Assembly (NCBI GenBank): GCA_004212735.1
Contig: SHBD01000016.1
Span: 1 to 37,426, forward strand
Direction of reading: 5' to 3'
Source of the DNA: SAR116 cluster bacterium
Lineage (GTDB): Bacteria > Pseudomonadota > Alphaproteobacteria > Puniceispirillales > Puniceispirillaceae
Length of the DNA: 37,426 nucleotides
Position 1 is the stretch's first letter, and each line of letters starts with the position of its first letter. Made by a program: the position numbers and the translations under genes. This document shows positions 17,458 through 37,426 of the stretch, piece after piece. The notes beneath the pieces were generated by a model. It did no database searches, was not told the DNA's origin, and worked only from the letters and a program-made list of their open reading frames with translations.

Positions 17458-19008
17458 CTACGTGGTATGGGCTGTCGGACGGCCAAGAATATAGGCCGGC
17501 ATTTCAAGCCCATGAATCAGGCTGCCATCCGCAATCATTACAGCCGCCTTTTGCAGATCCGGGGCCATGAAACGATCTTCTGAAAGCGACTCAACGTGTT
17601 GGCGCACGCGGGCAATCACATCCTGTAATATCGGGCTGGATTTCAACGGGGCGCGAAAATCCACGCCCTGGCATGCGCACGCAAGCTCAATTCCGAGGAT
17701 CATATTCAAATTGGCATTCATCTTGTGAAGCCGTCGGGCGCCATGCGCTGCCATGCTGACATGATCCTCCTGATTGGCCGAAGTTGGCGTGCTGTCAGTC
17801 GAACAGGGATTGGCAAGATGCTTATTCTCGCTCATCAGAGCGGCACTGGTAATCTCGGCAACCATAAACCCCGAGTTGAGGCCGGGATCTCTGGTTAAAA
17901 AGGGCGGCAAGTCAAAACTGAGGGACGGATCGACCATCAATGCAACACGCCGTTGCGAGATTGACCCAATTTCAGCCAGCGCAAGGGCAATCTGATCAGC
18001 TGCAAAGGCCACCGGTTCGGCATGGAAATTGCCGCCCGAGACAATCCGCCCTTCTTCAACCAGAACCAGCGGGTTATCAGTCACCGCATTGGCCTCAATT
18101 TCCAGTGTCTGTCCGGCAAAATGCAGCAGATCCATCGCCGCGCCGGTGACTTGCGGCTGACAGCGAATGCAATAGGGGTCCTGTACGCGGCTATCACCCT
18201 CGCGGTGCGTCTCACGAATCTCCGAACCTTGCATGATTGCCCGCTGCGCATGGGCAACCGCAATCTGCCCCTTATGACCGCGAAGCGTATGGATCGCATC
18301 AACCAGTGGTGCCGTCGAACCCATGATTGCATCCGTTGACAGCGCTGCCGTTACCACCGCTGCACTGGCATTCCGCCAGCCATCAAACAATGCCGCCAGC
18401 GCACAGGCCGTGGAAAATTGCGTGCCATTGATCAGCGCAAGCCCCTCTTTCGGGCCAAAAACCACCGGCGATAGACCGGCCGCTGCAAGCGCCGCCCCAC
18501 CAGGCATCACCTCGCCCTCAAAGCTGGCCTCCCCCTCGCCAATCATGACTGCCGCCATATGGGCAAGCGGGGCCAGATCACCCGATGCCCCAACAGACCC
18601 CTGCACTGGAATTTGGGGGAACACTCCCTTATTCAGCATATTGGCAATCAAATTCACCGTCGCCCACGCCACGCCAGAGGCACCGCGACCAAGCGACAGT
18701 AACTTTAGAACCATCATTATCCGTGTCGTTGGCGCTTCGAGTGCCTCGCCAACCCCGCAGCAATGCGAGAGCACAAGATTGCGTTGCAGACTGGCCGTCT
18801 GGTCTTTTGCGATGGGCACGTTAGCAAGCTTGCCAAAACCAGTATTGACGCCATAAACCGCAGCACCGCCAGAAGCTGCCTTAGCAACAAACGCCGCCGC
18901 CGCCTCGATTGGGGCCCTGGTATCGGGATGCAGGGCAATATCATCATTGCCACGCCAGATTTGTTCAAGCTGGACAAGCGTAACCTCACCTGGAACCAAA
19001 GTGATCAT
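17458..19008 (-). CDS. hutH: Histidine ammonia-lyase
   Basis: This enzyme deaminates L-histidine to urocanate, the first step of the pathway. The Ala-Ser-Gly triad that cyclises to the MIO electrophile is at residues 141-143 in [14 protein letters not shown]. The catalytic Tyr lies in [10 protein letters not shown] near residues 52-61. Its 516-aa length is normal. Its start codon overlaps the hutI stop (ATGA), so translation is coupled. The NQEDHVSMA stretch near the C-terminal third is also family-typical. Confidence 0.97.
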
Positions 19009-20321
19009 GTGATTTGCCCCCCATAAATACGGCGATACAGTGGATTGAAACCAATCCGGTAGGAAAGCTCAGCCGGATGCGCCACATCCCACAGCGCGAG
19101 ATCAGCCCGCAAGCCGGGACGCAACATGCCGGAGTCAGACACCCCAAGCGCCCGGGCCGCGTTCCTCGTCACCCCGGCAAGTGCCTCATGTGGTGTCATG
19201 CCGAATAGGGTACAGCCCATATTCATGGCCAACAGCACAGACGTCAAAGGCGATGATCCGGGGTTGGCGTCAGTGGCAAGCGCCATCGGCACGCCATGTT
19301 TGCGAAACAGGGCCACCGGCGGCTTTTGGGTTTCGCGCAAGGTATAGAACGCCCCGGGCAACATGACGGCCGCGCTGCCTGCGACACCAAGCGCAATCAC
19401 ATCATCTTCATTTGCATATTCAACATGATCCACCGACAGTGCCTTGTGACGGGCTGCCAGAAGGCTGCCGCCGCACCTCGTTAATTGTTCGGCATGAAGC
19501 TTGACCGGCAGGCCGAGTTCCGCTGCCACATCAAACAATGGCGCGATCTGATCTGCACTAAAGGCAATCGATTCGCAAAAGCCATCCACTGCATCCACCA
19601 GCCCTTCCTTATGCGCCTGGCGCAACGCCGGAATGCAGGTTTTTTCAATGTAATCCTCTGGCGATCCATCTTCACCCGGGGGCATCGCATGCGCCCCAAG
19701 AAAGCTGGTAACGACACGCACCGGACGCGCCGCCTCGATGGCCCGCGCGGCTCGCAACATCCGCAATTCGGTTTGCACATCCAAGCCATAGCCAGATTTC
19801 ACTTCGATCAGGCTAACCCCCTCGGCAATCAGCGCATCAACCCGCGCCAATGCCCCCTCAAGGAGCTGTTCAACCGATTGCGCGCGTGTGGCGCTGACGG
19901 TAGAGACAATGCCGCCACCGGCCTTTGCCACTTCGGCATAGCTTGCCCCGTTGAGGCGCAATTCAAATTCCACCGCACGATCACCGCCGTAGACGATATG
20001 TGTGTGGCAATCAATCAAGGCAGGCGTCAATAGCCTGCCATTCGCATCTATCGTCACATCCATATGCACCATGGCCGTATCATTGGCCGTATCATTGGCC
20101 ATATCATTGGCCAGATTTTTGGCCAGATTTTTGGTCAGATATTCGGCCAGATATTCGGGAAGTGCTGACATTGGGCCAAGCGCGCTAATCAGGCCATCCT
20201 GGATCAACAGATAGCCATTCGGGATAAGACCATAAGACTCGTCAACAACGCCCTTTTCAGCCGCATTTGTGATCTGATCATCCAGCAGCGTCATCGCTGC
20301 ATTTGTGATTAATGCCTTCAT
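19005..20321 (-). CDS. hutI: Imidazolonepropionase with repeat-born insertion
   Basis: This amidohydrolase opens imidazolone propionate to N-formimino-L-glutamate. The metal motif is [12 protein letters not shown] (about 104-115), and LHAEQ and [10 protein letters not shown] supply further ligands. The start at 20321 follows AAGGA by six bases; the preceding GTG is discounted. The 438-aa protein is about 30 residues longer than usual. The excess equals a 28-residue run (about 56-83) of seven four-residue repeats ending in Ala or Thr, encoded by a 12-bp minisatellite. The insertion sits in the N-terminal beta-sandwich region, before the catalytic barrel, so activity may be kept. Confidence 0.95.
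20077..20160 (-). repeat. 12-bp minisatellite inside hutI (7 units)
   Basis: Seven consecutive 12-bp units run from 20077 to 20160. In the + strand they read GTATCATTGGCC twice, ATATCATTGGCC, AGATTTTTGGCC, AGATTTTTGGTC, AGATATTCGGCC and AGATATTCGGGA. The period is a multiple of three, so the hutI frame is kept. In the protein they give [24 protein letters not shown] and NDTA. Confidence 0.92.
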
Positions 20322-20342
20322 CACGGATCCTTGCTTTGCGCT

Positions 20343-22484: not shown

Positions 22485-22719
22485 GCGGGTTTAGTTGTAA
22501 GCGCGCTGGATGATCCAGCGGTCACTCCGGGTTGGGTGCCCAGCCCCAAAACCCAACTCAAAAGCCCAGTCCCAAAACCCAACTCAAAAGCCCAGTCCCA
22601 TAAAAAAGGGTTGCAAAAAAGGCCGCCGAAATAAACCAGAGGCTTTTTTTGGCAAGCCTGTTGGTCTATTTGCCCGGCTGCTGTTACGATTGTCTCGCAC
22701 TGTCAACGGAGGTGATCTT
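22485..22719. other. Intergenic stretch with 26-bp direct repeat
   Basis: There is no gene here. Two identical 26-bp copies starting CCCAAAACCCAACTCAAAAG lie at 22545-22570 and 22571-22596, with a partial third start after them. The repeat is C- and A-rich on the + strand and lies between hutC and the probable terminator at 22615. Confidence 0.8.
22615..22650 (+). terminator. Probable terminator after hutFC
   Basis: AAAAAAGGCC (22615-22624) can pair with GGCTTTTTTT (22641-22650), with one G-U pair and a 16-base loop, and ends in a T-run. It lies 130 bp after hutC and could work in both directions because of the A-run on the left. Confidence 0.5.
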
Positions 22720-23563: not shown

Positions 23564-23648
23564 CTGATTGAAACCGCGAAATAAACAGAGTTGAACGACT
23601 GGAGAGCTATGTGATTGATGCTGAGTTGGGTGTCTGAGGCAAACAACT
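23564..23648 (+). pseudogene. Decayed copy of the small CxxC gene's 3' end
   Basis: These 85 bases match 24933-25017 at 82 of 85 positions. In the intact copy they encode the last 23 or so residues, ending in the stop of the small protein at 24815. Here the Trp codon of the intact copy is a TGA and no upstream reading frame remains. It is a relic of duplication or recombination. Confidence 0.75.
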
Positions 23649-23663: not shown

Positions 23664-23934
23664 AGTGGTGTTCCCGAAGTTTTAGGTAATTGCAGACAGG
23701 ATACTTTGCCTTTCAGTATCCGGCGGTGGTCTGTGATCACCGCATCTCAAGGCAGAGGGTCTGTTGGGCACCTCTCAGTCATACCTCAGTCATATCTCAG
23801 ACACAAATGTGTGAGTGGTACTTTAATCCAGAGGCTCAACAGGTACCAATCCACCCCTAACAACAACGTGTCTGTGACGGGCATCAGAAGGCGAAAAAGC
23901 TGAATGACATCGGCGGTCTGAATGTAAAGAGAGA

Positions 23935-24814: not shown

Positions 24815-25006
24815 ATGATCTCCGCGAGACATGGTGTTCTGTCCAATCAAAAAGACAAACATAGGCTCATTGCCATCCTGAAATTCAAAGACGCAGACGC
24901 TTGTAAAAATTGCATGGAATTGAGTGAGGCTGCTGATTGGAAACGCGAAATAAACAGAGTTGAACGACTGGAGAGCTATGTGATTGATGCTGAGTTGGAT
25001 GTCTGA
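24815..25006 (+). CDS. Small CxxC protein, unrecognised
   Basis: This is a 63-aa protein if it starts at the ATG at 24815; ATGs at 24770 and 24779 would add 15 or 12 residues but overlap the operator. I do not recognise it. It has a CKNC motif in DADACKNCMELSEAADW and a charged helix-like end (EINRVERLESYVIDAEL). Its position divergent from a metal-sensing repressor and its CxxC make a metal or redox role thinkable. Its last 85 bp are duplicated at 23564-23648, so it could itself be a fragment of a larger mobile or duplicated gene. Confidence 0.4.
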   Translation: MISARHGVLSNQKDKHRLIAILKFKDADACKNCMELSEAADWKREINRVERLESYVIDAELDV

Positions 25007-25017
25007 GGCAAACAACT
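24933..25017 (+). repeat. 85-bp direct repeat, right copy
   Basis: This copy differs from 23564-23648 at only three positions over 85 bases. It covers the end and stop of the small CxxC gene and 11 bases beyond. The two copies bracket the tRNA relic and the metal-regulated gene pair. Confidence 0.85.
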
Positions 25018-25286
25018 TAATGGTGTCGAGGATGTTTATGACACTCTCAGCCTACACCCTCAGCCTACACTTTCAGCCTACACAATGACACAACATCATC
25101 ACGCGAGAATTCACCTATTGAAGACATTCCCAACAGCAACAATCGTCAAACCACTTAACGGACTTTTTGAAATTGTGTTTGCGTTTTTTTCACTGGGTAT
25201 GTCTTTTCACCAGTATGGACCCAGAATGTTATCAAACACGCAGGCGCGGGCGCTACCGGTGCCACCGTCAATTCCGGCAATGGCCG
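25018..25286. other. Intergenic stretch with 13-bp minisatellite
   Basis: There is no convincing gene. TCAGCCTACAC occurs three times with a 13-bp period at 25047, 25060 and 25073. A 90-codon frame that starts at 25085 runs into the antisense of the next gene and shows no family features. Confidence 0.6.
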
Positions 25287-26012
25287 TCAAAGATCGACCG
25301 CATTCGGCAAAAGGACAAGATCCCGAATGGTTACGTTGGGTGAGCGGGTCAGCATAAAGACAACGCATGTTGCGACCTCATCGGGCTGCATCAAGCTGCC
25401 TTCAGCCAGCGCTTGGTCCATTTTAGCCTTGGGCCAATCGTCCAAAAGTGCCGTCACAACAGGTCCTGGCTGAATGGCACCTACACGCACGCCATGCTTG
25501 GACATTTGGCGGCGGATGGTATGGGTAAAGGCCTGCACAGCATGTTTCGAGGCTGTATAAATCGGCTCCCACACAACCGGGATCATGCCGGCAACTGAAC
25601 TGGTCAGGATAACATCACCGCTGCCCTGTTTGGCCAGATGAGGCAACACCGCGTGAACCGACCGGAAGGCGGCGTTGATGTTCAGGTTCAGCATTTGATC
25701 CCAAACGTCAGCATCGGCCTCTAGAACATCACCGCCGACATAAGCCCCGGCATTCGCATGAAACGCGTCAAGTCGTCCAAGCTTGTCGAGGATGTTCGGT
25801 AGCATCTGTGCGACGCTCTGCTTATCCATCAGATCGGTGATGATTGGCAACGCGTTTGGTCCGAGATCGGCGCAGGCCTTCTCAAGCGCGGGCACATCAC
25901 GATCCACAAGCGCAACCTGCGCCCCCTCCTCTATACAGGCCTTCGCACACGCAAGTCCAATCCCCGACGCTGCGCCGGTTATGGCCACCACCTTTCCAGA
26001 CATTTTTGACAT
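25287..26012 (-). CDS. rbtD: Ribitol 2-dehydrogenase
   Basis: This 241-aa short-chain dehydrogenase oxidises ribitol to D-ribulose with NAD+. Recalled Klebsiella ribitol dehydrogenase shares long stretches with it: [34 protein letters not shown] and [17 protein letters not shown]. The cofactor motif is TGAASGIG (about 12-19), and the catalytic Tyr and Lys are in YTASK. The ATG at 26012 has GAGG eight bases upstream. It is the last gene of the leftward pentitol operon, 127 bp after the previous one. Confidence 0.9.
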
Positions 26013-26139
26013 TTCAGTTTCCTCGCAAGTTAGTGTTTAGCAGTTCAGATCAGGCCATATTGCGGCGCTTTCCCCTAAGAAATTGCAGGTGCCCAAGCCA
26101 AACGTCCCCCGAAGCAGCCGCGGTTGATGCCAAATCCCC

Positions 26140-26892
26140 TCATACGCTGGAATATCCTCCTTCGATCATCATCAATGCGCCATTTACCAGGTCAGACGCG
26201 GGCGAAGCCAGATACAGCGCCATATCCGCGATCTCGATCGGCTCGCCAAAGCGACCCAGCGGTGTTGACTCAATCATCGGGCCGGATTTCTCGGGCGGGC
26301 TCCATATTTCGCGCCCCATCTCGGTCATCACCACAGTGGGGCAGATTGCATTAACCTGAATATTGTGCGGCGCGAGTTCGGTCATCAGGGATTTGGTCAA
26401 CGCGTTGAGCCCTCCCTTAGACGCAGCATAGGCCGCATGATCAGCCAAGGCGATAACACCCGTTTGCGATGAAATATTGATGATCTTACCCGCTTTCGCG
26501 GCGATCATTTGCCCAGCAAGACCCTTGGCCAAAAGGAATGGCGCACGCAGATTGATGGCCATGGTGCGATCCCAGTCGTCGACAGCAAACTTGAGGACAG
26601 GCCCGACCAAGGCGACGCCCGCGGAATTCACCAAGATTTCGATCTTTGGCGAGAAAGCGAGCGCGTCAGTCACGAGGCTTTGGCATCCTTGCGTCGTCGC
26701 AATATCGGCGACGATCATCTTGCATCCGGTTTCTGCCGCAAGCGCCGCCAACCGGTCATGTGATTGACCGCTTGCAATGACATGCGCACCCGCATCAGTG
26801 AATACGCGGACAATTTCTGCGCCTATGCCCGAGGAGGCCCCGGTAACAAGCGCCGTCTTACCTGAAATCGAAAATCTGTCTGTCCAACCCAT
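26140..26892 (-). CDS. L-xylulose reductase / polyol dehydrogenase-like SDR
   Basis: This is a 250-aa classical short-chain dehydrogenase. The cofactor motif is TGASSGIG (about 17-24), then NSAGVALVGP, and the active site is SSQTG...YAASKGG. The NAICPTVVMTEMG and PLGRFGEP parts recall L-xylulose reductases and D-threitol dehydrogenases. It most likely interconverts a pentulose or tetrulose and its polyol. It starts three bases after the SIS-domain gene stop with GGAG six bases upstream. The exact sugar cannot be told. Confidence 0.82.
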   Translation of the reverse strand: MGWTDRFSISGKTALVTGASSGIGAEIVRVFTDAGAHVIASGQSHDRLAALAAETGCKMIVADIATTQGCQSLVTDALAFSPKIEILVNSAGVALVGPVLKFAVDDWDRTMAINLRAPFLLAKGLAGQMIAAKAGKIINISSQTGVIALADHAAYAASKGGLNALTKSLMTELAPHNIQVNAICPTVVMTEMGREIWSPPEKSGPMIESTPLGRFGEPIEIADMALYLASPASDLVNGALMMIEGGYSSV

Positions 26893-26895
26893 GCG

Positions 26896-27447
26896 CTACT
26901 CCAAGTTCGTATGATTGGAACGCATGGCCTCGGGCGACACACCGAGGCGGTCTCGAAGGTCCAATACCAAAAGTTCAAGGAACAGGAACATCAAGGCTTC
27001 GAAAAGCGAGCCCATGGGCAAGATCGAGCTTCTCTTTGCACCCTGATCTGCGGCCATGGTTTGCGCTGGTAGGTGGATCACCATGTCGGTAGAACGGGGC
27101 ACGGCACCATCCGGTTCCGCGGTGATGCAAATCACTGCGGCCCCGGCATCTTGCGCTACGCCAACCAGCGCAGCGACGGTTGAAAAGCTGCCCGGTCCGG
27201 CACTGACAAACAGTACATCGCCCAGTCCCACAGGCGGCGTTGTCATATCGCCCTGTACATGCGCATCGAGGCCAAGATGATAGAGCCGCATCGTCAATGC
27301 CCTCATCATCAATCCTTCGCGTCCAACCCCGTAACATACAACACGCCGGGCCGTGGCAAGCCGTTGCGACAAGTTGGGGAGCTGAGCCAGAACCTCAGGC
27401 GCCAGTCCAGGACGCAATTCGTCAAGGACTTGGTCGGCAAGGGTCAT
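26896..27447 (-). CDS. SIS-domain sugar isomerase (6-phospho-3-hexuloisomerase-like)
   Basis: This 183-aa protein is a single SIS (sugar isomerase) domain. It has [24 protein letters not shown] and the [14 protein letters not shown] phosphate-binding loop, close to the HxlB/PHI layout. That enzyme isomerises 3-hexulose 6-phosphate and fructose 6-phosphate. No partner hexulose-phosphate synthase is present, so it may act on another phosphosugar in this polyol operon. It overlaps the dehydrogenase stop by four bases. Confidence 0.78.
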
Positions 27448-28487
27448 GACTGGCCGACCTTTATCTGGATTTTTACATCGCTTGGCCGCGCCTCGACTGC
27501 ACGATCAAAAGCATCGATGCTATGCTGAAATGCAAAGGTTTCAGAAATGAGCGGTTTGAGATCCACCTTGCCAGAGCCGATCAGCGCAATAGCTCGGTCA
27601 TACATATTGGCGTAACGGAACACCGTCTCCATACGGATTTCCTTGGATTGGGCCAGCACGATATCAACCGGAACGGGATCAACAGGCATACCCACCCAAA
27701 CGACGCAGCCTGATGGCGCCACAGCCTCAAGCGCGGTCTGGATCGAAGCGGCTGCTCCGGCGCATTCAATCACCACGTCGGCACCCCAGCCTTCGGTAGC
27801 ATCTTGCAACGTTTTCGAGACATCATCCTGCGGAACCAGGATGGGTTCGACATTGTCATATTGCGCGGCGACCTGAAGCTTTTGCTCGACAAGATCGGTT
27901 ATAAAGACCTTGGCGCATCCACCCGCCAGTGCCGCAAGCGCGCACATGACGCCAATCGGCCCGGCACCCGTGACAAGCGCAACATCGCCCGGTTTGATCT
28001 TGGCCCGCGCAGCAGCCTGCATACCGATGGCAAATGGTTCAACCATAGCCCCCTCGGCAAAGCTCACATTGTCTGGCAGGCGATAGGTAAAGGCGGCTGG
28101 GTGGACAACGGATGGAGTGAGGCATCCATGCACCGGTGGGGTGGCCCAGAACTGAACATCCGGGTCCACGTTATAGACACCAAGTTTCGACGCCTTGGAG
28201 GCAGGGTTCGGAATACCCGGTTCCATACAGACCCTATCGCCGACCGTGAGATTGGTCACGTCCGCCCCAATCTCGGTCACCACGCCCGAGGCTTCGTGTC
28301 CCAGCACCATAGGCGCCTTCACGACAAAGGGACCGATCTTGCCGTGGGTGTAGTAATGCACGTCACTGCCGCAAACTCCGACCGTATCGACGGAAATGCG
28401 TACATCGCCCGAACCGACTGTCGCGGGCAGGTCTATCTCCCGAAGCGCAAGTTTTCGTTTTTCCTCCAGAACCAATGCTTTTGCCAT
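27444..28487 (-). CDS. Xylitol/sorbitol dehydrogenase-type zinc enzyme
   Basis: This is a 347-aa medium-chain dehydrogenase of the sorbitol/xylitol (D-xylulose reductase) class. The catalytic zinc residues are the Cys in [10 protein letters not shown] and His-Glu in GHEASGVV. A Rossmann motif GAGPIGVM lies near residues 175-182. The [10 protein letters not shown] stretch is typical of polyol dehydrogenases. It probably oxidises xylitol or arabitol to xylulose. It overlaps the SorC gene by one base (TAATG) and the SIS gene by four, so it is tightly coupled on both sides. Confidence 0.88.
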
Positions 28488-29479
28488 TACGCACCTCTTT
28501 GTGTTTGTTGCGTCGCCGTTACGTCGACCAGCGCTTTTGCTGTGTTTTCATCCGTGACCAAGGTATTAACCAGACCGCGCTTAAGAGCTGCGGCAATGAC
28601 AGGTACTTTATGCACCCCCCCTGCGGCCATGATGACATTTTCGATCTTGTCCAATTCTTCCAGCGATAGCCCAATAACCCGGCTGTTGATTGGGTGGTCG
28701 ATCAAACCACCATCCGCATTCAGTATATAGCCCATAATGTCACCGACGCCGCCGAGGGCGATCAACTCGGCTGGCTCGACACCGGAAGGAATGGCATCAC
28801 GGACCAGCAATGAACTGTTCAAGTCGCCTGTGGCCAGACCAACCGCACCACAGGATTGTATTTTCTTCAGCATGTCCTTGATCACATCCTGCTCCAGAAA
28901 CATTTCCTGACTTTCTGCGCTGCTCGCATAGAGCGGGGCAGTGAAAAAGCTGTGATCGGCGTTGCACAAATCGGCCAGTCGCGTGGTGATCTCGTAGCAG
29001 TTCACATCAGAACCTCGTGAGACCCCACCCATTATGGACAGAATTTCCAGATCTGGCCGATTAAGTGGCTGCATATTGCGGGTGGCAAGGTTTAGTGTAT
29101 TTCCCCAGGACATCCCGAAACGTGTCAACGATTTGTCCTGCAATATATCCCCGAGAACAGCGCCCAGCCCCGCCGCAACAAGGGGCGTGACGGAAGCGGC
29201 ATCTTCAGGGGATGGTACGACAACCGCACGCGTTAAACGAAAGCTGTGTTCAAGTTCCCATTCAAGTTCTGCCGCGGCGGCATAAATGGAATCGACGCTG
29301 ACCCTCAAGATGCCCCTTTTGCGTGCTTCGCCAAGAGCTTTGTTCACCCGCAAACGTGTGATGCCGAATCTCTTTGCCGCATCCGCCTGGGTCATACCTT
29401 CGACTTCACAAGCCCAAGCAAGCCGAGCCAACAACTGTTCCTCAGGATTGATCTGTTCGAGCTTGATGAACCGTGACAT
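28487..29479 (-). CDS. SorC-family sugar-responsive regulator
   Basis: This 330-aa regulator has an N-terminal helix-turn-helix ([29 protein letters not shown], about 29-57) and the large SorC effector domain related to sugar-phosphate isomerases ([26 protein letters not shown]). SorC proteins sense phosphorylated or free sugars and control their own operons. It lies within the pentitol operon. Its most likely target is the pair of TACAwTTGTA sites between the binding-protein and ATPase genes; that is inference. Confidence 0.9.
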
Positions 29480-29540
29480 GACAACTCCTGTTTTGGCGCA
29501 GCCTATGTGTGTCGGGGGACAATAGGAATACGGGCCATGA

Positions 29541-30359
29541 TCATTTTACCGCCCCCATTGTCAGCCCGCGGACCAATTGCTTCGAGGCTAATAGAGCAAA
29601 GATCAAGACTGGTATCACAATCAAAGTCGAGGTGGCCATGATCTTGCCATAGGGCAGGCTGTATCCTTCCATAAAACTGACCGCCATCGCCGGGGCCGTC
29701 TTCGCCTCGGTCCGGGTCAAGATCAGGCCAAACATCAACTCGTTCCAAGAAAAGATAAACGAAAATATGGCCGAGACCGCAACACCAGGCATCGCAAGCG
29801 GGAGACAAATTTTGCGCATGATGGTGAACTGTGACGCACCCTCCAGGCGCGCAGCCTCGTCCAGATCGTATGGAATGCCCCGGAATTGGTCGGTTACAAT
29901 CCAAATAACGATTGGTAGATTGAAGGTTAGGTAAATCAGGATAAGCGTGATGTGCTTGTCCAAAAGGCCCAAATTGCGGGCAATCAGGAAGAACGGCAGC
30001 GCTAGGACGATGGGTGACACCATGCGGTTCGTAATAAACCAGAACCAAAGGTCCTTCTTACCTCGAAACTCGAACCGAGCCAGCGCGAATGCGGCCGGCA
30101 CTCCAAGGATCAGAGCAAGCAGCGTTGTGGAAATGGCGACGACCAGCGAGTTGATCAGGGTGCGCAAGACACCATCTTCAAACAAGGCTTCGCGGTAATT
30201 GTTCAACGTCGGCTCGAACAGCCAAACCGGTGGTGCTTCCAGCGCGACAATCTGGGTTTTGAGCGACGTTGTCACCATCCAATAGAAGGGGAATACACAA
30301 ACAGTGATGATCACAACAAGCAGAACAATCTGCGACCAAAGAGACCGCGGCGCCGTCAT
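29541..30359 (-). CDS. Sugar/polyol ABC transporter permease (MalG type)
   Basis: This is a 272-aa inner-membrane permease of the carbohydrate CUT1 family. It has a hydrophobic N-terminal helix (about 10-30) and several core helices. The EAA loop is DLDEAARLEGASQFTIMRKICLP, about residues 160-182, and is the ATPase contact. It starts three bases after the other permease's stop. Context assigns it to pentitol uptake. Confidence 0.92.
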   Translation of the reverse strand: MTAPRSLWSQIVLLVVIITVCVFPFYWMVTTSLKTQIVALEAPPVWLFEPTLNNYREALFEDGVLRTLINSLVVAISTTLLALILGVPAAFALARFEFRGKKDLWFWFITNRMVSPIVLALPFFLIARNLGLLDKHITLILIYLTFNLPIVIWIVTDQFRGIPYDLDEAARLEGASQFTIMRKICLPLAMPGVAVSAIFSFIFSWNELMFGLILTRTEAKTAPAMAVSFMEGYSLPYGKIMATSTLIVIPVLIFALLASKQLVRGLTMGAVK

Positions 30360-30362
30360 AGC

Positions 30363-31229
30363 TCAAACCTCCTTGTAGAAAACACGAATATAAATCTGCG
30401 CCAAAATGATGGTGATGATCAGTAGGATAATGGCTTGAGCCGAGGCGAGACCTTGGTCGAAGCCGCGGAAGCCAACCCTCTGAATCATCAACGAGATGAA
30501 CTCTGTCGATGATCCCGGACCACCTCTTGTCAAGGTGAAAACCATGTCAAACAGCTTCAACGTATCCGCTGTGCGCAGGATCAGCACGGCGACTAACCCG
30601 GGAAGCAGGAACGGCATCTGCACGTAGCGCAAAACGGTCCATTTGGATTTGGTTTCCAAGCGCGCGGCCTCTTCGACTTCGCCCGGCACCATTGTCAAAC
30701 CGGCCAGCAGGACCAGAGCCACGAACGGAGTCCACTGCCAAACATCCCAGAAAACGATCATTGCAAAGGCATTTTCCGGATCGCCAATCCAGTTGATGTC
30801 AGCCCCACCGAGGAGTTGATTCATCACGCCGAATTTCTGGTTGAACATGACCTGCCCAAGCAGGCCGACCACGGCGTAAGTCGTCGCCATGGGCAAAACG
30901 AGACTGAGGCGACATAGCGTTTTGATCAGGGTCAGGCCGGGCTGATGCAGCACAAGCGCTATGCTCATGCCAAGGATGATTTGCAGCGGCAAAGCCGTAA
31001 CCAGAAGAAAAAAAGTGCGGCCCATAGCCTGCCAAAACACCTCGTCAGTAAGAACTGTCGAATAATTTTCAAAGCCAATAAATTTGACCTTTTTCAACTT
31101 GGTCAAATTGTAAAAATGAAGAGAGGTCCAAACAGCATAAATCAGCGGTGCAATACCAACAGCCGCCAGCCCGATCACGGCGGGGCCGACAAAGGCAAAA
31201 ATGGTTTTGCGGGACACTTGACCGCGCAT
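30363..31229 (-). CDS. Sugar/polyol ABC transporter permease (MalF type)
   Basis: This is a 288-aa inner-membrane CUT1 permease with six or so spans. The EAA loop is VPGEVEEAARLETKSKWTVLRYVQMP, about residues 180-205. FWDVWQWTPFVALVLLAGL is the common helix before it. It pairs with the downstream MalG-type permease. It is separated from the binding-protein gene by the 39-bp hairpin repeat array, which probably lowers its expression relative to the receptor. Confidence 0.92.
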   Translation of the reverse strand: MRGQVSRKTIFAFVGPAVIGLAAVGIAPLIYAVWTSLHFYNLTKLKKVKFIGFENYSTVLTDEVFWQAMGRTFFLLVTALPLQIILGMSIALVLHQPGLTLIKTLCRLSLVLPMATTYAVVGLLGQVMFNQKFGVMNQLLGGADINWIGDPENAFAMIVFWDVWQWTPFVALVLLAGLTMVPGEVEEAARLETKSKWTVLRYVQMPFLLPGLVAVLILRTADTLKLFDMVFTLTRGGPGSSTEFISLMIQRVGFRGFDQGLASAQAIILLIITIILAQIYIRVFYKEV

Positions 31230-31245
31230 TACATACCTCCCCAGT

Positions 31246-31258
31246 CCCCAGTTTGGGG
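31246..31258 (-). repeat. Small hairpin before the permease
   Basis: CCCCA and TGGGG with a GTT loop lie between the 39-bp repeat array and the permease start at 31229. The hairpin may be part of the same intercistronic control structure. Confidence 0.4.
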
Positions 31259-31259
31259 T

Positions 31260-31421
31260 ATCAAGGGCGCCGTTCTGGCGCCCTTGATCAAGTTAGATTG
31301 TTGGGGCGCTGTTCTGGCGCCCTCGACCAAGTTCCATTGTTGGGGCGCCGTTCTGGCGCACTCGATCAAGTTAGATTGTTGGGGCGCCGTTCTGGCGCCC
31401 TCGACCAAGTTACATTGTTGG
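31260..31421 (-). repeat. Four 39-bp tandem repeats, each with a GC-rich hairpin
   Basis: Units start at 31266, 31305, 31344 and 31383, exactly 39 bp apart. Each carries GGCGCC or GGCGCT, a GTTCT loop, then GGCGC, giving an inverted repeat. The unit nearest the permease extends to a perfect 12-bp stem, ATCAAGGGCGCC / GGCGCCCTTGAT, with a 5-base loop (31260-31288). The array fills the space between the binding-protein stop and the MalF-type permease. Stacked hairpins here would shield the upstream message or partly stop transcription. Confidence 0.92.
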
Positions 31422-31423
31422 CG

Positions 31424-32767
31424 TTATTGCGCCAGCGGTTTTTCACCCGAATAATAGCCTGCCTCTTCAAGCACAGACTCCATCCGTGTGCCGATCTCTG
31501 TCGCGCCTTCTTCGGTGGTCACATCTCCGAGCATCATCTTGGTGCCCCACTCTTGCACGATCTCGGTGATTTCTGGCCACTCTGCGAAACGTGGACGGAA
31601 TTCTGGCACACCATCCTGCCAGCTTTCAACCAGAGCCGGGACAAATTTGAACGCTTCCAGATCATCACCCTCGTAAACAGACTGACGGGCCGGAACACCG
31701 CCACGCTCAAGATATTCGCGGGCATTGGCTTTGGATGTGGCCCACTGGATAAAGAGATAGGCTGCGGCCTGTTCTGCTTCATCTGCCTGAGATGCAACGG
31801 CGAGGGAGAAGCCACCAAGAGCAGGCTTACGGCCTGCAGGACCCATTGGCTCCGGCGCAATTTCCACACAATCTGCGACCTTGGATGTGTCTGGCGACAC
31901 AACTGAGGAATAGAAAGCAGACCATTCGGTGATAATCGCAATGTCACCCTGGCTGAAGCCGTTTACCGTTTCAGCGTGGTCAAAAGCCACGATGCCGTCC
32001 GGCATATATTGCATCAGGTCCTGACGGAACTTCAGGCCAGCCTGACTTTCCGCGCTGTTGAGGTTTGATTTGAAATTGGCGTCAAGAAATGAGCCGCCGA
32101 ATGGCCACAGAACGCGCGCAAAGCTGTCCGCAGACTGGGTTTCATTCCGCTTGGACTGCAAAGCGAAAGCGTATTTGCCATTTTTGGTCAAGGCTGGACC
32201 GTAAACGTCCTTTAACTCTTGCCAGGTGGCGGGTGGGCCGTCAAAGCCAGCCTCTTCCAGCATACAGCGATTATAGAACATCAGGCCCGAGTAATTATCA
32301 AACGGCAAACCATACACGGTGTCATTCCAGCCACCAAAGGCGTTCAGGACCAATGGAAAGAAGTCATCCATGTCAAGCTTCGGGTCAACTGCATCCGGGT
32401 ATTTTGCCTGAACGTCCGCCAGCGGAAGGATCCAGTCATTTTCTGCAAAATTGCCGATCCAGACAAGGTCGATCAGAGCAATATCGAGGTCCCCGCCCGC
32501 GACGAAATCGCGAACCTGCTCACCCAAGGCATTCTCATAAGGGTGCTTGATGATATTGATATTGATGCCTGTCTCTTCCTCAAAGGCCGGCAGCATCGCT
32601 TCAATTGCCTCATAGCCGGGGCGCAAAAGGAATACAACATCGACAGTTGTACCTGCATAGGGTGCGGCTGCCTTTTTCAGGCTCCATCCGTGACCATCTG
32701 CCATTGCACCTGTCGCTGTAAGGCTGGCCAGAGCCGCCGAACAAAGTAGATTGCGTAGCATTTTCAT
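31424..32767 (-). CDS. Periplasmic polyol/sugar-binding protein
   Basis: This is a 447-aa extracytoplasmic receptor of the SBP family 1. The signal peptide is about residues 1-23 (MKMLRNLLCSAALASLTATG..AMAD). The mature start has VVFLLRPGYEAIEAMLPAFEEETGIN, and the family's VYGLPFDNYSGLMFYNRCMLEEAG block follows. It would deliver ribitol, xylitol or a related sugar alcohol to the two permeases. It is the first gene of the leftward operon. The start at 32767 is two codons upstream of a second Met (32761); either is possible. Confidence 0.9.
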   Translation of the reverse strand: MKMLRNLLCSAALASLTATGAMADGHGWSLKKAAAPYAGTTVDVVFLLRPGYEAIEAMLPAFEEETGININIIKHPYENALGEQVRDFVAGGDLDIALIDLVWIGNFAENDWILPLADVQAKYPDAVDPKLDMDDFFPLVLNAFGGWNDTVYGLPFDNYSGLMFYNRCMLEEAGFDGPPATWQELKDVYGPALTKNGKYAFALQSKRNETQSADSFARVLWPFGGSFLDANFKSNLNSAESQAGLKFRQDLMQYMPDGIVAFDHAETVNGFSQGDIAIITEWSAFYSSVVSPDTSKVADCVEIAPEPMGPAGRKPALGGFSLAVASQADEAEQAAAYLFIQWATSKANAREYLERGGVPARQSVYEGDDLEAFKFVPALVESWQDGVPEFRPRFAEWPEITEIVQEWGTKMMLGDVTTEEGATEIGTRMESVLEEAGYYSGEKPLAQ

Positions 32768-32796
32768 GATTCTGATTCCTCCCAGAAAGTTTTGCC

Positions 32797-32874
32797 AGGA
32801 TGCAAATCCATATGCATCCTTTAAATTACAATTGTAAATGTACCCTTGAAAGTCAATACATTTGTATCTATAAG
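32797..32874. promoter_or_regulatory. Divergent pentitol promoter with twin operators
   Basis: On the + strand TTGAAA (32846-32851), a 17-bp spacer and TATAAG (32869-32874) form a good promoter for the ATPase gene. The perfect palindrome TTACAATTGTAA (32826-32837) and the near-palindrome ATACATTTGTAT (32856-32867) share TACAwTTGTA and have centres 30 bp apart; the second sits inside the spacer. A further inverted pair, AGGATGC (32797-32803) and GCATCCT (32814-32820), is closer to the binding-protein gene. SorC is the likely binder. Confidence 0.6.
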
Positions 32875-32922
32875 TTTACACAGAAAACGCGGCTGATGCG
32901 CAGCGATCAAGGAGGATCCCTG

Positions 32923-33939
32923 ATGGCAGGTATTAAGATCGAAGGTTTGAACAAGTTTTACGGTCAAACCCAGGCCCTTTTTGATGTGACCCTCGATGTC
33001 GAAGACGGAGAATTTGCAGTTTTCGTCGGTCCTTCGGGATGCGGTAAGTCCACTTTGCTGCGTTGTGTTGCTGGGCTCGAAGGTGTCGAGACGGGCAAAA
33101 TTATCTTGGACGGGAGCGACGTGACACACGCTGAACCTGCGGATCGCGAGCTGTCGATGGTGTTCCAATCCTACGCTCTATACCCTCACATGACTGTGCG
33201 CGCGAATATGGAATTTGGGATGAAGGTGAACGGTTTTGCTCCCAAGCTGCAAGAAGAGCGCATTGCCGAAGCGGCGCGCATTCTGCAACTGGAAGACTAT
33301 CTCGAGCGCAAACCCGGGCAACTTTCCGGCGGGCAGCGTCAGCGCGTCGCCATCGGGCGTGCGATCGTGAAAAACCCAAAGGTCTTCCTGTTCGATGAAC
33401 CACTCTCCAACCTTGATGCCAAACTACGCGTTCAAATGCGCGTCGAGTTGGAGGCTTTGCACAAGCAACTTGGCGCCACGATGATCTATGTTACCCACGA
33501 CCAGGTGGAAGCCATGACAATGGCGGACAAGATCGTGGTGCTGAATGATGGCCGTGTCGAGCAGGTCGGGACCCCGATGGATTTGTACCATAAACCAGTC
33601 TCGCGATTTGTTGCTGAATTCATCGGCTCACCCGCCATGAATGTGTTTTCGGCGGACGGCGGTGTCCAGGGCCTGACCCTTGACCCAAAGGCATCCTATG
33701 TCGGCTGTCGCCCCGAACATCTTGAGCTTTTGCCAAGCGGTAAGGGGCAAATCAATGCAACCGTCCGGGTGAAAGAGCGACTGGGCGGCGAATGCCTTCT
33801 TTATCTCTCAACGCCCGGTGGCGGCCAACTTGTTGCCCGTGTCGATGGCGATGACAAAACTGAAAACGGTGCCGAGATTGGCTTGCGTATTCCCGAGCAT
33901 CGCTTGCATCAGTTCGATTCAAACGAACGGGCTTTGTAG
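32923..33939 (+). CDS. Sugar/polyol ABC transporter ATPase (MalK/UgpC type)
   Basis: This is a 338-aa carbohydrate importer ATPase. Walker A is GPSGCGKS (about 37-44), the signature is LSGGQRQRVAIGRAI (about 134-148), and Walker B is VFLFDEPLSNLDAK (about 153-166), followed by YVTHDQVEAMTMA. The C-terminal part from about 240 is the TOBE/MalK-type regulatory domain. The start at 32923 is fixed by AAGGAGGA; the longer frame crosses the promoter. It is transcribed divergently from its permeases and binding protein. Confidence 0.93.
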   Translation: MAGIKIEGLNKFYGQTQALFDVTLDVEDGEFAVFVGPSGCGKSTLLRCVAGLEGVETGKIILDGSDVTHAEPADRELSMVFQSYALYPHMTVRANMEFGMKVNGFAPKLQEERIAEAARILQLEDYLERKPGQLSGGQRQRVAIGRAIVKNPKVFLFDEPLSNLDAKLRVQMRVELEALHKQLGATMIYVTHDQVEAMTMADKIVVLNDGRVEQVGTPMDLYHKPVSRFVAEFIGSPAMNVFSADGGVQGLTLDPKASYVGCRPEHLELLPSGKGQINATVRVKERLGGECLLYLSTPGGGQLVARVDGDDKTENGAEIGLRIPEHRLHQFDSNERAL

Positions 33940-33948
33940 GGTCTTTCT

Positions 33949-34689
33949 TTGGTACAATCGCAACTATTACCCTCTGTGACAGGCTCCCGCATCACCGATG
34001 CACTCGATGGCGTCGAATTGGTCGTCTTTGACTTTGACGGCGTGATAGCTGATAGCGAAGTCCTGTCCCTGGACACATTGCGCGATGCGCTTGCCGATTG
34101 CGGCCTACGAATGCCGCTGGAACAGGCCCGCAGTCTGTTTCTTGGGAAATCACTCGCGTCAATCTCGGATTACATTGCTTGTCACGGCACCGAAGGTGCG
34201 TCGGACGGTTTTGCAGATCGCTGGCAAAACGAACTTTTCCAATTGCTTCGTACCGAATTGAAACCGATGGCGGCGATTTTGCCGCTTCTCAAATCCCTCG
34301 ACAAGCATAATGTTCAATACTGCATCGCATCCAGCAGTAGTTTCCATCGCATCAGGCTGTCATTGACCACCATGCACCTCGAGGATCAGTTTCCCAATCT
34401 TTTCAGCGCAGAACAGGTGAAAAACGGGAAACCGGCCCCTGATCTGTTCCAGTTTACAGCAGAGCAAATGAATATGGACCCAAGCGCTTGTCTGGTGATC
34501 GAAGATTCTCCGCACGGCGTCCGGGGAGCAAGAGCCGCGGGTATGCGTGTCTTCGGGTTTGTCGCTGGTGCGCATCTGAATGACATCCAGAAAACCCATG
34601 GGGACCTGTTGTTGGACGCGGGGGCCGAGCATGTTTTGGGGAGCTTTGCGGAGCTGCAGTCTGCGCTAACGAATTACAGCTCCGATTAG
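33949..34689 (+). CDS. HAD-family phosphatase (beta-phosphoglucomutase-like)
   Basis: This 246-aa HAD hydrolase has the nucleophile motif DFDGVIADSE near residues 29-38, the CIASSSSFHRI motif II, a motif III Lys (KNGKPAPDLF), and IEDSPHGVRGA motif IV. That is the pattern of sugar-phosphate phosphatases and phosphomutases. The start is uncertain: TTG at 33949 or GTG at 33976, both without a strong ribosome site, ahead of the first Asp. It follows the ATPase by nine bases, so it is probably co-transcribed and may remove misphosphorylated pentitols. Confidence 0.82.
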   Translation: MVQSQLLPSVTGSRITDALDGVELVVFDFDGVIADSEVLSLDTLRDALADCGLRMPLEQARSLFLGKSLASISDYIACHGTEGASDGFADRWQNELFQLLRTELKPMAAILPLLKSLDKHNVQYCIASSSSFHRIRLSLTTMHLEDQFPNLFSAEQVKNGKPAPDLFQFTAEQMNMDPSACLVIEDSPHGVRGARAAGMRVFGFVAGAHLNDIQKTHGDLLLDAGAEHVLGSFAELQSALTNYSSD

Positions 34690-34692: not shown

Positions 34693-34769
34693 TACCACGA
34701 TTAGGGTGGTGATGGATGCACTTTCCAGTAAACAATCTTGGCACCTCAGGATTGCGCACTTATGAAAAG

Positions 34770-35300
34770 TCACCATAATTCTGGTTTAGATAGTGGGCTA
34801 ACACACTCAAACTTGACTGGTGTGTCAGGGACCGCAGTTTCATTCAACATCATACCTGTCCACCCAAATGGATATTCCAGCGGGTATGGTGGAACGAATG
34901 AGCATCCAATTTCTTGAGTGAACCCAAACCGTCCATAGTAATCTGGATCACCATAAACCAATAGAACACCAACACAATCGTTGGCGAGCAAATCTATCCC
35001 AGATTTGATGAGTTTCGAACCGACACCCCGTTTCTGATGTTCTGGAGAGACAGCAAGTGGGGCAAGAATATATCCGGAGATACCAGAGTCAGAGTCCAAG
35101 AAGATTGGACTGTAGGACACATAACCAATTACTTGGTTATCAACTTCAGCAACCAATGACTTGATTAAAGGACTGGAAGTTTCTCGGGAGAGTTCAGCAG
35201 CAAAGTTACCAATGACTTTGTTCTCTTCATCAGAAAACGCAGTTTCAATAACCTTCTGGATTGGGTTCCAATCTGTTTCTTGAGCCAGTCTGATCAGCAT
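34770..35300 (-). CDS. GNAT-family N-acetyltransferase
   Basis: This is a GNAT protein (about 176 aa) of the YhbS type. The acetyl-CoA loop is QKRGVGSKLIKSG (about 87-99), preceded by YILAPLAVSPEHQ; GDPDYYGRFGF is also characteristic of the YhbS subgroup. The start at 35300 gives MLIRLAQETDW; an ATG six codons upstream is possible, and neither has a good ribosome site. Its A+T-richer codons differ from the pentitol genes to its left and suggest acquired DNA. The substrate is unknown. Confidence 0.82.
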   Translation of the reverse strand: MLIRLAQETDWNPIQKVIETAFSDEENKVIGNFAAELSRETSSPLIKSLVAEVDNQVIGYVSYSPIFLDSDSGISGYILAPLAVSPEHQKRGVGSKLIKSGIDLLANDCVGVLLVYGDPDYYGRFGFTQEIGCSFVPPYPLEYPFGWTGMMLNETAVPDTPVKFECVSPLSKPELW

Positions 35301-35318
35301 AATAACCAAGCATAACAT

Positions 35319-35779
35319 GACAAAAAACAGTGAGGGATACCATTGCTCTCATAAGGCTGATTTTTCAATTTGGGTTCACCGACCCAAATCCATGTTGCCT
35401 TGCGATCACCTAAATTGCATGTCCCCATTCACAGGACAGTTACAGCGAGTCTGTACGAGGCTTGTAGAGGGCTGCTGTCTGGCTGTTGGTATCTCATGCA
35501 AATACAGGCTAGCTGTATGTTTGCAGGGCATGACAAAGAAAAGTTCCCGTAATGGACAAGTGTCTTGTTATTCCAATCGGAACGAACATCCGACTGTATT
35601 CCTACAGCTGGCTATAAATCCACTTGAATGTAGACATCAGACTATCCAGTCAGGATGTCCCTGAAACTAAATCCGACCATCACCTGACTGCCAGTTCATG
35701 TCTCTGTAGCCATGCTTGGCAGTGTCTATAGTGGGTGACGCTGGGTAGTTGGAAACTCAGTCGAAGCAGGTGGTGGTGA
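35319..35779. other. Gene-free accessory stretch
   Basis: About 460 bp have no supported gene. A 115-codon + frame from 35317 is rich in Cys and His with no family pattern and no ribosome site, so I do not call it. No clear repeat or promoter was seen. Confidence 0.5.
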
Positions 35780-36580
35780 CTAGACGTTGCTTTGCAGGTC
35801 ACGAAGGAAAACATGAACATCCTTGTCCAACTGAAGGTCACCAATCGCGTGTATTGGCATAATGCCCCAATTCAATATCTTGTTCGTCTGGGAACTGGCA
35901 AAGAAGCGTGACCTTAGTTCGTATGCGTATCGCATTTCTGGATTGCCGTAGTTATGCTGTGCCTTGTTTACGCATTGATATAGTGCGTGGGCTGTCAAAT
36001 CCCCCAAACATAACAGCGGTACGTCTGTCTTGCCTGCAGTCAAGATATTGCTTGTGTCTATGTGTGACAACAAAGCTGTCTGGCGGCGGACTGGATTTTG
36101 CTGACATCTGCTTACAAAATATTGGAATGTCGAAAGTCTAATGTGATTGGAGCCTTCAAAGACGATGCGAACCGTTTCTTTCGGGATATTATGCTTCTGA
36201 AGAAATCGACCTAGCCGTTCCAGCAGATATTGTGCGCATTTGTGATAATATCGCCAATATTCGTCCCCAATATCTTCTTTATATTCCTCTAGCGTTTGCT
36301 TGAATGAAATGACACCGAAGCAAACAATAGGTTGAGCCGCCGAACTTCTAGCGTAATGCACCTTTCTTTGATGGTTCATATCGGCACAGTAAAGTGTCCT
36401 AATTCCAAGATCGGAAACCAAACCAGTCAAAAATTGCTCTACACCATGCGCATCGCTATCGCGCACCAACACGCCGCCTAGTGTCATGTATGGAGATGCA
36501 CCGCCTTCAGTGCCAGACCGAACCCGACTCGTTCCAGCATCGCCACTTTCATCGATATAAAATGTGTATGTCTCAGGCAT
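35780..36580 (-). CDS. DUF3800 protein
   Basis: This 266-aa protein begins MPETYTFYIDESGDAG, the DUF3800 hallmark with an acidic IDESGD motif. The middle (VRIVFEGSNHIRLSTFQYFV) and the C-terminal LLCLGDLTAHALYQCVNKA fit the family's nuclease-like fold. The ATG at 36580 is chosen because GGAGG lies five bases upstream; an ATG four codons earlier is possible. The biochemical role of the family is poorly established, and members often occur in mobile or defence contexts. No partner gene is visible here. Confidence 0.8.
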   Translation of the reverse strand: MPETYTFYIDESGDAGTSRVRSGTEGGASPYMTLGGVLVRDSDAHGVEQFLTGLVSDLGIRTLYCADMNHQRKVHYARSSAAQPIVCFGVISFKQTLEEYKEDIGDEYWRYYHKCAQYLLERLGRFLQKHNIPKETVRIVFEGSNHIRLSTFQYFVSRCQQNPVRRQTALLSHIDTSNILTAGKTDVPLLCLGDLTAHALYQCVNKAQHNYGNPEMRYAYELRSRFFASSQTNKILNWGIMPIHAIGDLQLDKDVHVFLRDLQSNV

Positions 36581-36592
36581 CCTTGCCTCCAT

Positions 36593-36826
36593 AAGGAGAT
36601 GCCTAAGTCGACATTAGCAATGAGTCAACATACAGATAATAAACAGAAAAATAAGATTTTTCTAATATGTCCAGCAACAAGCAGTCACTTGCCTTTATGG
36701 CTATAAGTCGCAGAACCCAGACAAAGATTGCGCCACGTCACAATATTGTCACTTGAATGCAACCATGCGGTAACAAGAATCAACTCTTTTCTTCATCCCT
36801 TAATATCGAACAGTGGAGTTATTAGG
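36593..36826. other. Intergenic stretch between divergent genes
   Basis: This is 234 bp between the leftward DUF3800 gene and the rightward secreted-protein gene. It is AT-rich. A GGAG at 36815-36818 is the ribosome site of the latter. No promoter hexamer pair was convincing by eye. Confidence 0.4.
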
Positions 36827-37426
36827 ATGAAAAAAAAATTAGTGACACTTCTTGCCACAACATTCCTGTCGACTGCAGTTACGTATGCTGCAAGTGCAGA
36901 TGCTGATCAAAAGGCTATTGGTCAGACACAGGCACTGATTGCCGAAGCGGGTCTTTCAACTATTTCTGACGCGAACTCAACAAACAACAATCTTAGAGAT
37001 GGGGAAAGCGCAAATACAAATTTCCCATTTGCAAATTTCAAGGCGATTGCCACAGTCGGAGAGGTTGACGCTATCTCTGGTTTAGCGCTGACAGGTTATC
37101 CTGACGGACAAGCTGCATGGCTCTCTGACGAAGATACCGTTCGCGTGGTTTATCAGAGCGAATCATATGCCACTATGGGCCGGGCACCCAAGCCTGAGAC
37201 ATATCCGTGGCAGATGATGAATGGAGTGACTTTCACCGGGTCACATATCCACACCATCGACTATGACCGCGCGAAATTTGCAGACTTCATGAATAACGGT
37301 GATTCTGCACAAAGCATGGTAAAGGGATCCGGTAAACTTTTTAACAAAGTTTACAACGGCTTTGGTGAAATGGTATCAGCCCCTTCCTTCGATCCGGCAT
37401 ATCTGTCCGGCAAGTGGGGCAACCAG
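36827..37426 (+). CDS. Secreted protein, unrecognised, cut by window edge
   Basis: A frame of exactly 200 codons is open to the last base, so the C-terminus is missing. The ATG at 36827 follows GGAG. A signal peptide is clear: MKKKLVTLLATTFLSTA, then TYAASAD, with cleavage near residue 23. The mature part contains GYPDGQAAWLSDEDTVRVVY and ETYPWQMMNG. I do not recognise the family. It is probably periplasmic or extracellular. Cys is absent from the visible part. Confidence 0.7.
   Translation, partial: MKKKLVTLLATTFLSTAVTYAASADADQKAIGQTQALIAEAGLSTISDANSTNNNLRDGESANTNFPFANFKAIATVGEVDAISGLALTGYPDGQAAWLSDEDTVRVVYQSESYATMGRAPKPETYPWQMMNGVTFTGSHIHTIDYDRAKFADFMNNGDSAQSMVKGSGKLFNKVYNGFGEMVSAPSFDPAYLSGKWGNQ

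Follow-up and report, generated by a model that had tools for sequence, protein, structure and literature searches.

Solute-binding proteins (SBPs) are needed in excess relative to their translocators. The locus described here, in which four tandem hairpins separate an SBP gene from the first of its permease genes, raises the question of whether such hairpins could bring about this excess, and whether four of them would do more than one. As a natural four-copy variant, the locus makes the value of a second or third protective hairpin directly testable by reporter; should the extra copies do nothing, it would be a case of hairpin arrays arising as by-products of tandem duplication.

The element is of a known kind, in an unusual copy number and tandem form. 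Excerpts of an E. coli study (PMC5927463) report that 26 of 34 gene pairs with a stabilised first gene have a 3' end just past a stable hairpin lacking a U-tract, and that such hairpins, including the one at malE-malF, are taken to resist 3'-5' exonucleases. The malE-malF junction, as described there, shares with the present locus an SBP gene in first position, translocator genes after it, and a stable structure without a U-tract in between; it differs in that the hairpin reported here is conserved in relatives and occurs in four tandem copies. Counting against the likeness, 17 of the 26 E. coli structures in these excerpts are located within the downstream gene and outside the gap. The Rhodobacter capsulatus puf operon, as excerpted in PMC5927463 and PMC6238624, offers an intercistronic hairpin affecting the stability of an mRNA segment in another alphaproteobacterium; it is a photosynthesis operon, and the likeness is one of description. 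A search of titles and abstract openings in open-licence PubMed Central articles met no tandem hairpin array after an SBP gene.

The array in the SBP-permease gap

The window analysed here is a 37,426-nt stretch of DNA from a SAR116 cluster bacterium and makes up an entire contig. Its minus strand carries, in order, genes for an SBP, two permeases, a SorC/DeoR-type regulator, a zinc alcohol dehydrogenase, an SIS protein and two short-chain dehydrogenases (Table 1), and the SBP gene lies directly upstream of its translocator genes on the same strand, as at a malEFG-type junction. The gap between the SBP gene and the first permease gene is 194 nt long, and a scan of 31100-31600, limited to the sigma-70 type, found no promoter-like site for the permease. 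For the divergent ATPase gene, the start given is the ATG that fits the family model, the listed open reading frame (ORF) beginning at 32800. Beyond it, positions 34700-37426 form a stretch of low G+C content (45%) with genes for a GNAT acetyltransferase and a DUF3800 protein.

Table 1. Features of the operon and of the SBP-permease gap, in window coordinates
Feature	Position	Strand	Details
UgpC-type ATPase gene, divergent, upstream of SBP gene	32923..33939	+	NF008653, 452 bits from residue 42
SBP gene, first of the operon (SBP_bac_8/SBP_bac_1)	31424..32767	-	Pfam PF13416, 1.5e-33; PF01547, 7.2e-33
Unit 1 (SBP-proximal)	31382..31420	-	core 31382-31400, 7-bp stem, -14.9 kcal/mol
Unit 2	31343..31381	-	core 31343-31361, one broken pair, -8.3 kcal/mol
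Unit 3	31304..31342	-	core 31304-31322, innermost pair broken, -10.8 kcal/mol
Unit 4 (permease-proximal)	31265..31303	-	includes 5' arm of ancestral hairpin
Ancestral hairpin	31260..31288	-	perfect 12-bp stem, 5-nt loop, -23.0 kcal/mol, pairing probabilities 0.85-0.98
Small C4/G4 hairpin	31246..31258	-	gap alignment: like sequence opposite in two Marivita relatives (L026, L028)
Putative ribosome-binding site of the permease, GGGGAGG	31236..31242	-	sequence; putative role
First permease gene (BPD_transp_1)	30363..31229	-	PF00528, 1.2e-08
Second permease gene	29541..30359	-	PF00528, 7.2e-16
Remaining operon genes, SorC/DeoR-type regulator to two short-chain dehydrogenases	25287..29479	-	same order on Ruegeria plasmid

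An earlier note on this DNA had described a four-unit, 39-bp hairpin array between the two genes, and Tandem Repeats Finder, matches to the hairpin core and RNA folding all confirm it. Four head-to-tail units occupy 31265-31420; Tandem Repeats Finder returns 31265-31421 with a period of 39 and 4.0 copies (88% matches, score 258), and an alternative with a period of 78 and 2.0 copies (94%) that scores higher (286). The 19-nt core recurs at 31265, 31304, 31343 and 31382, at a spacing of exactly 39 and with 0, 1, 1 and 0 mismatches, respectively; 100 shuffles of the window gave no match to it. The perfect 12-bp stem that the note had placed in the unit nearest the permease is likewise present. 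Its statement that every unit contains an inverted repeat holds insofar as there are four hairpins, but the 12-bp stem is confined to the permease-proximal one, the others having a 7-bp core, with a broken pair in two of them. Nor does the array fill the entire gap, as had been proposed: with its outer arms (31260-31420) it takes up 161 of the 194 bases.

Six of the 39 positions in a unit vary. Four of these lie in the 20-nt linker and the other two in the stem, the five nucleotides of the loop being the same in all four copies. Both stem changes break a pair without compensation, and thereby affect two of the three extra hairpins. Folded as RNA, the 194-nt gap reaches -86.3 kcal/mol, compared with -60.7 +/- 4.4 in 200 shuffles (z -5.84, none as good), and ensemble folding of the entire gap has each of the four hairpins forming locally, with pairing probabilities of 0.7-0.98 except at the two broken ends. 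A search of Rfam with 30900-31800, accepting E values up to 1, gave two matches far under their gathering scores (22.8 against 70, and 18.1 against 270).

The junction hairpin in relatives and the history of the copies

Relatives of the operon were collected by scanning a genome collection with the SBP; 104 were found and 80 kept, their SBPs 71-91% identical in the best segment. One of them (L023) has an interrupted SBP frame, and its stop was set by hand. A permease gene follows the SBP gene in all 80, across a gap of 52-295 nt (median 79), and every gap contains a hairpin whose energy is -15 kcal/mol or lower (median -23.6; the weakest best hairpin, -16.0), which starts at a median of 19 nt past the SBP stop and ends at a median of 29 nt before the permease start. 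The strength of these hairpins exceeds what base composition leads one to expect, because they outdo both kinds of control: 73 of 80 beat all shuffles of their own gap (30 each, or 8 for three gaps longer than 200 nt), and all 80 beat each of ten same-length pieces of their own SBP gene, only 27 of 800 such pieces reaching -15. Stem sequences vary widely among the relatives, and the presence of the hairpin in every one of them despite this may point to a junction structure that is kept for a purpose.

Covariation was assessed in 22 disjoint pairs of similar gaps, drawn from 44 of the 80 relatives. Among 247 comparable base pairs, 199 were unchanged, 13 had changed on one side, 9 had changed on both sides and still paired, and 26 were broken; 22 further cells met alignment gaps. 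Two-sided changes were thus more frequent (3.6%) than in six slid controls (7 of 680, 1.0%), whereas broken pairs were as common (10.5%) as in those controls (71 of 680, 10.4%). Of the broken cells, 23 fall in pairs of gaps no more than 67% alike, in which the alignment is doubtful; in the nine closest pairs (at least 73%), 103 cells were unchanged, 6 had changed on one side and 1 on both, and 3 were broken.

More distant loci (SBP about 56-63% identical, n = 10) give no uniform picture. A strong hairpin is lacking in L139 (-7.6), and L138 and L137 have hairpins of -16.5 and -23.0. In the other seven loci (L018, L140, L142-L146) the gap is 699-788 nt long, and in five of these a strong hairpin begins no more than 65 nt past the stop; one of the 13 further loci considered, L141, ended before the permease gene. 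Counted without a chance control, five of eight further SBP_bac_1 genes in this genome with at least 30 nt before the next ORF are likewise followed by a hairpin of -15 or better (12 matches including that of the window, with L130 unreadable and two gaps below 30 nt left out). In relatives of the host, again counted without a chance control, such a hairpin follows 18 of 23 other SBP genes among the loci listed (29 new loci among the matches listed, from which five without an SBP end or a next ORF and one with a 29-nt gap were dropped); repeats were sought there as exact 12-nt words, and both counts take the next ORF whatever it encodes. Together these counts make a hairpin after an SBP gene an ordinary feature of the host and its relatives.

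The tandem form is a different matter. No tandem hairpin array was found in any of the 80 relatives by a search for exact 10-nt words, which badly diverged arrays could escape; one relative (L072) has short G+C-rich direct repeats in its gap, and nine contain, besides the main hairpin, another of -10 or better that does not repeat it. Three Chelativorans loci (L079, L081 and L097), with gaps of 245-295 nt, carry two different hairpins each, the best at -24.9 and the second at -13.6, -15.4 and -22.4.

Position identifies the old copy. The permease-proximal hairpin of the window ends 30 nt before the permease start, much as in the relatives; removal of three units shortens the gap from 194 to 77 nt (a loss of 117), close to the relatives' median; and when this shortened gap is aligned to those of L019, L026 and L028, the sequence after the hairpin lines up too. 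The permease-proximal hairpin is therefore the ancestral one, and the three further units were added on the SBP side. The copies resemble each other in an ABAB-like fashion, units 1 and 3 and units 2 and 4 agreeing at 37 of 39 positions and neighbours at 34-36; because of this agreement, and of the higher score of the 78-bp period, the simplest history is probably duplication first of 39 bp and later of 78 bp. The duplicated segment would have run from near the SBP stop into the ancestral hairpin. None of the extra hairpins (-8.3 to -14.9) matches the best hairpin of any relative in strength, and, given this weakness together with the two uncompensated stem mismatches, the extra copies look like decaying duplicates, two of them eroding.

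What the hairpins may do

The reading that we favour, and hold to be fairly likely, is that the conserved junction hairpin shields the 3' end of the SBP mRNA, and that tandem duplication added three weaker hairpins serving as back-up stops at most. Once an endonuclease had cut the polycistronic mRNA within its permease part, the strong hairpin, 30 nt ahead of the permease start, would bring PNPase and other 3'-5' exonucleases to a halt; the SBP mRNA would outlive the remainder, and SBP would come to exceed permease, by the mechanism proposed for malEFG. The host encodes both PNPase (1046 bits) and RNase E/G (537 bits). The extra hairpins lie upstream of the strong one, and an exonuclease would therefore meet them only after passing it, which would make them back-up stalling sites at best.

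The earlier note's interpretation of the array as a form of mRNA-stabilising hairpin is well backed by comparison: the structure lies at an SBP-permease junction, it lacks a U-tract, and the absence of conserved hairpins in relatives, named there as a refuting observation, is contradicted by all 80 relatives examined. The part concerning copy number does not fare as well, as discussed below.

Protection by the conserved hairpin is compatible with the view that the three added units arose by neutral tandem duplication and leave expression unaffected, the two readings differing only in what the extra copies do; we see this neutral view as evenly poised between true and false. The confinement of the array to the window, with none in the 80 relatives, and the uncompensated mismatches in two extra hairpins speak for it, as does the abundance of tandem arrays (score at least 50) in the host: a 200-kb sample contained 36 of them (18.0 per 100 kb), and 567 kb surrounding the operons of the relatives contained 22 (3.9 per 100 kb). 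The excess is small, however, for arrays with a period of 20-60 bp (5 in 200 kb, or 2.5 per 100 kb, against 9 in 567 kb, or 1.6 per 100 kb), and the samples compared are not of one kind. The identity of the loop in four copies that all fold locally also argues against neutrality, if weakly, the sites being few.

The main rival, which we regard as unlikely, is that the hairpins act chiefly as partial internal terminators that cut transcription of the permease genes, as in cellulolytic Clostridia. Excerpts of the Clostridial study (PMC9045158) describe a stem-loop right after the SBP gene and propose an excess of SBP, as here; in R. cellulolyticum, all 16 predicted stem-loops led to at least some premature termination, with efficiencies of 20.7-96.1%, some of them with few U. 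Stem-loops in a Clostridium operon are also the subject of PMC10311766, again as excerpted. The Clostridial elements in the excerpts of PMC9045158 are single stem-loops with U-rich tracts (many of fewer than 5 U), in contrast to four tandem hairpins none of which is followed by a U-tract: after the main hairpin comes ACCCCAAA, with no T in eight positions, and after the other three CAACAAT, with one T in seven. Ordinary intrinsic termination is therefore disfavoured. At least five T in the eight nucleotides after the hairpin, as termination would lead one to expect, occur in seven of the 80 relatives, but 73 have fewer. A terminator scan of 31100-31600 likewise returned no site in the array, its one hit, against 0.8 in shuffles, being a weak 5-pair stem at 31457-31472, inside the end of the SBP gene.

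According to a further proposal, close to the earlier note's suggestion that copy number could tune the ratio of receptor to permease and could vary between strains, the array is a dial adjustable by slippage: each added hairpin would be another stalling site, the gain or loss of 39 bp would quickly shift the SBP-to-permease ratio, and the number of hairpins would have risen by tandem duplication after the operon entered a new host. We doubt this strongly. The tuning claim is not supported: a tandem array was seen in none of the 80 relatives, and a stem pair is lost, uncompensated, in two of the added units.

It is highly improbable that the units serve to bind the SorC/DeoR-type regulator encoded in the operon. 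Each unit does contain a near-palindrome, CTTGRTCRAG, exact only in the array, and with at most one mismatch this motif has 22 matches in the window (6 in the array and 16 elsewhere) against 8.2 expected, a number reached in none of 100 shuffles. Half of each array site, however, is hairpin stem or, in unit 4, its flank, and the presence of the motif in the array needs no other cause. At the same tolerance, moreover, it is missing from 32193 to the end of the window, and so from the SBP-ATPase intergenic region, the expected site of the promoter.

The malE-malF junction itself holds two REP copies. That the present units, which are palindromic, extragenic and tandem, are copies of a mobile or dispersed REP/BIME-like element is largely refuted, in that a 17-nt core with at most one mismatch recurs in the 2.49-Mb genome only at the four array sites, that with up to three mismatches it has 33 matches against 23 for a reversed control pattern, and that the gap sequence has no significant match in 60 host relatives (best E 0.02), plasmids (best E 7) or phages (best E 8). 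REP elements, as excerpted in PMC12306157, are likewise short extragenic palindromes; a genome carries multiple copies of them that share a motif, whereas the unit described here occurs at one site.

Origin of the operon

The SBP is absent from all 60 other genomes of the host's order (E 1e-60), and the permease is absent from the same 60. Of these genomes, 40 have a completeness of 90% or more and little contamination, whereas the four of the same genus are only 57-73% complete. Among 384 other genomes of the host's class, the SBP is present in one. In a tree of the SBP with 79 relatives (L023 omitted), 51 are labelled Rhodobacterales and 16 Hyphomicrobiales, and the SBP of the window nests with full support, in a bootstrap that had not settled, among 17 relatives, 15 of them Rhodobacterales and two Hyphomicrobiales. 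The SBPs of this group are at most 92% identical to that of the window, as in one of Roseobacter type. A mobilizable Ruegeria plasmid, pTHAF33_b, one of the plasmid matches (5 of 14 examined), has the same gene order and a 69-nt gap with a hairpin of -23.7.

The soxA-like gene of the contig is 95, 87 and 87% identical to its counterparts in three genomes of the same genus and 45% in a fourth. The contig thus fits the genome, its left part being native, and the ABC operon looks foreign. A mis-binned contig is rejected on the strength of these same-genus identities; the assembly may be chimeric at the operon border. Because the SBP and permease are absent from the order, and in view of the tree placement, the gene order on the plasmid and the native left part of the contig, transfer is the probable source of the operon, with Rhodobacterales-type bacteria as candidate donors. 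The region that looks acquired, a polyol/sugar ABC operon, spans 25287-34689.

Past the 3' end of the operon lies an 85-nt direct repeat (23564-23648 and 24933-25017, 96% identical, 1369 bp apart), which could be the mark of an insertion or a gene remnant. Other tandem repeats in the window include 12-bp repeats at 20072-20152, within an amidohydrolase gene (19005-20324) beside histidine-utilisation genes; a 26-bp unit repeated 2.4 times (97%) at 22538-22600, overlapping the start of a mechanically called ORF; and short repeats at 25041-25083 (13 bp, 3.3 copies) and 23774-23800 (11 bp, 2.5 copies).
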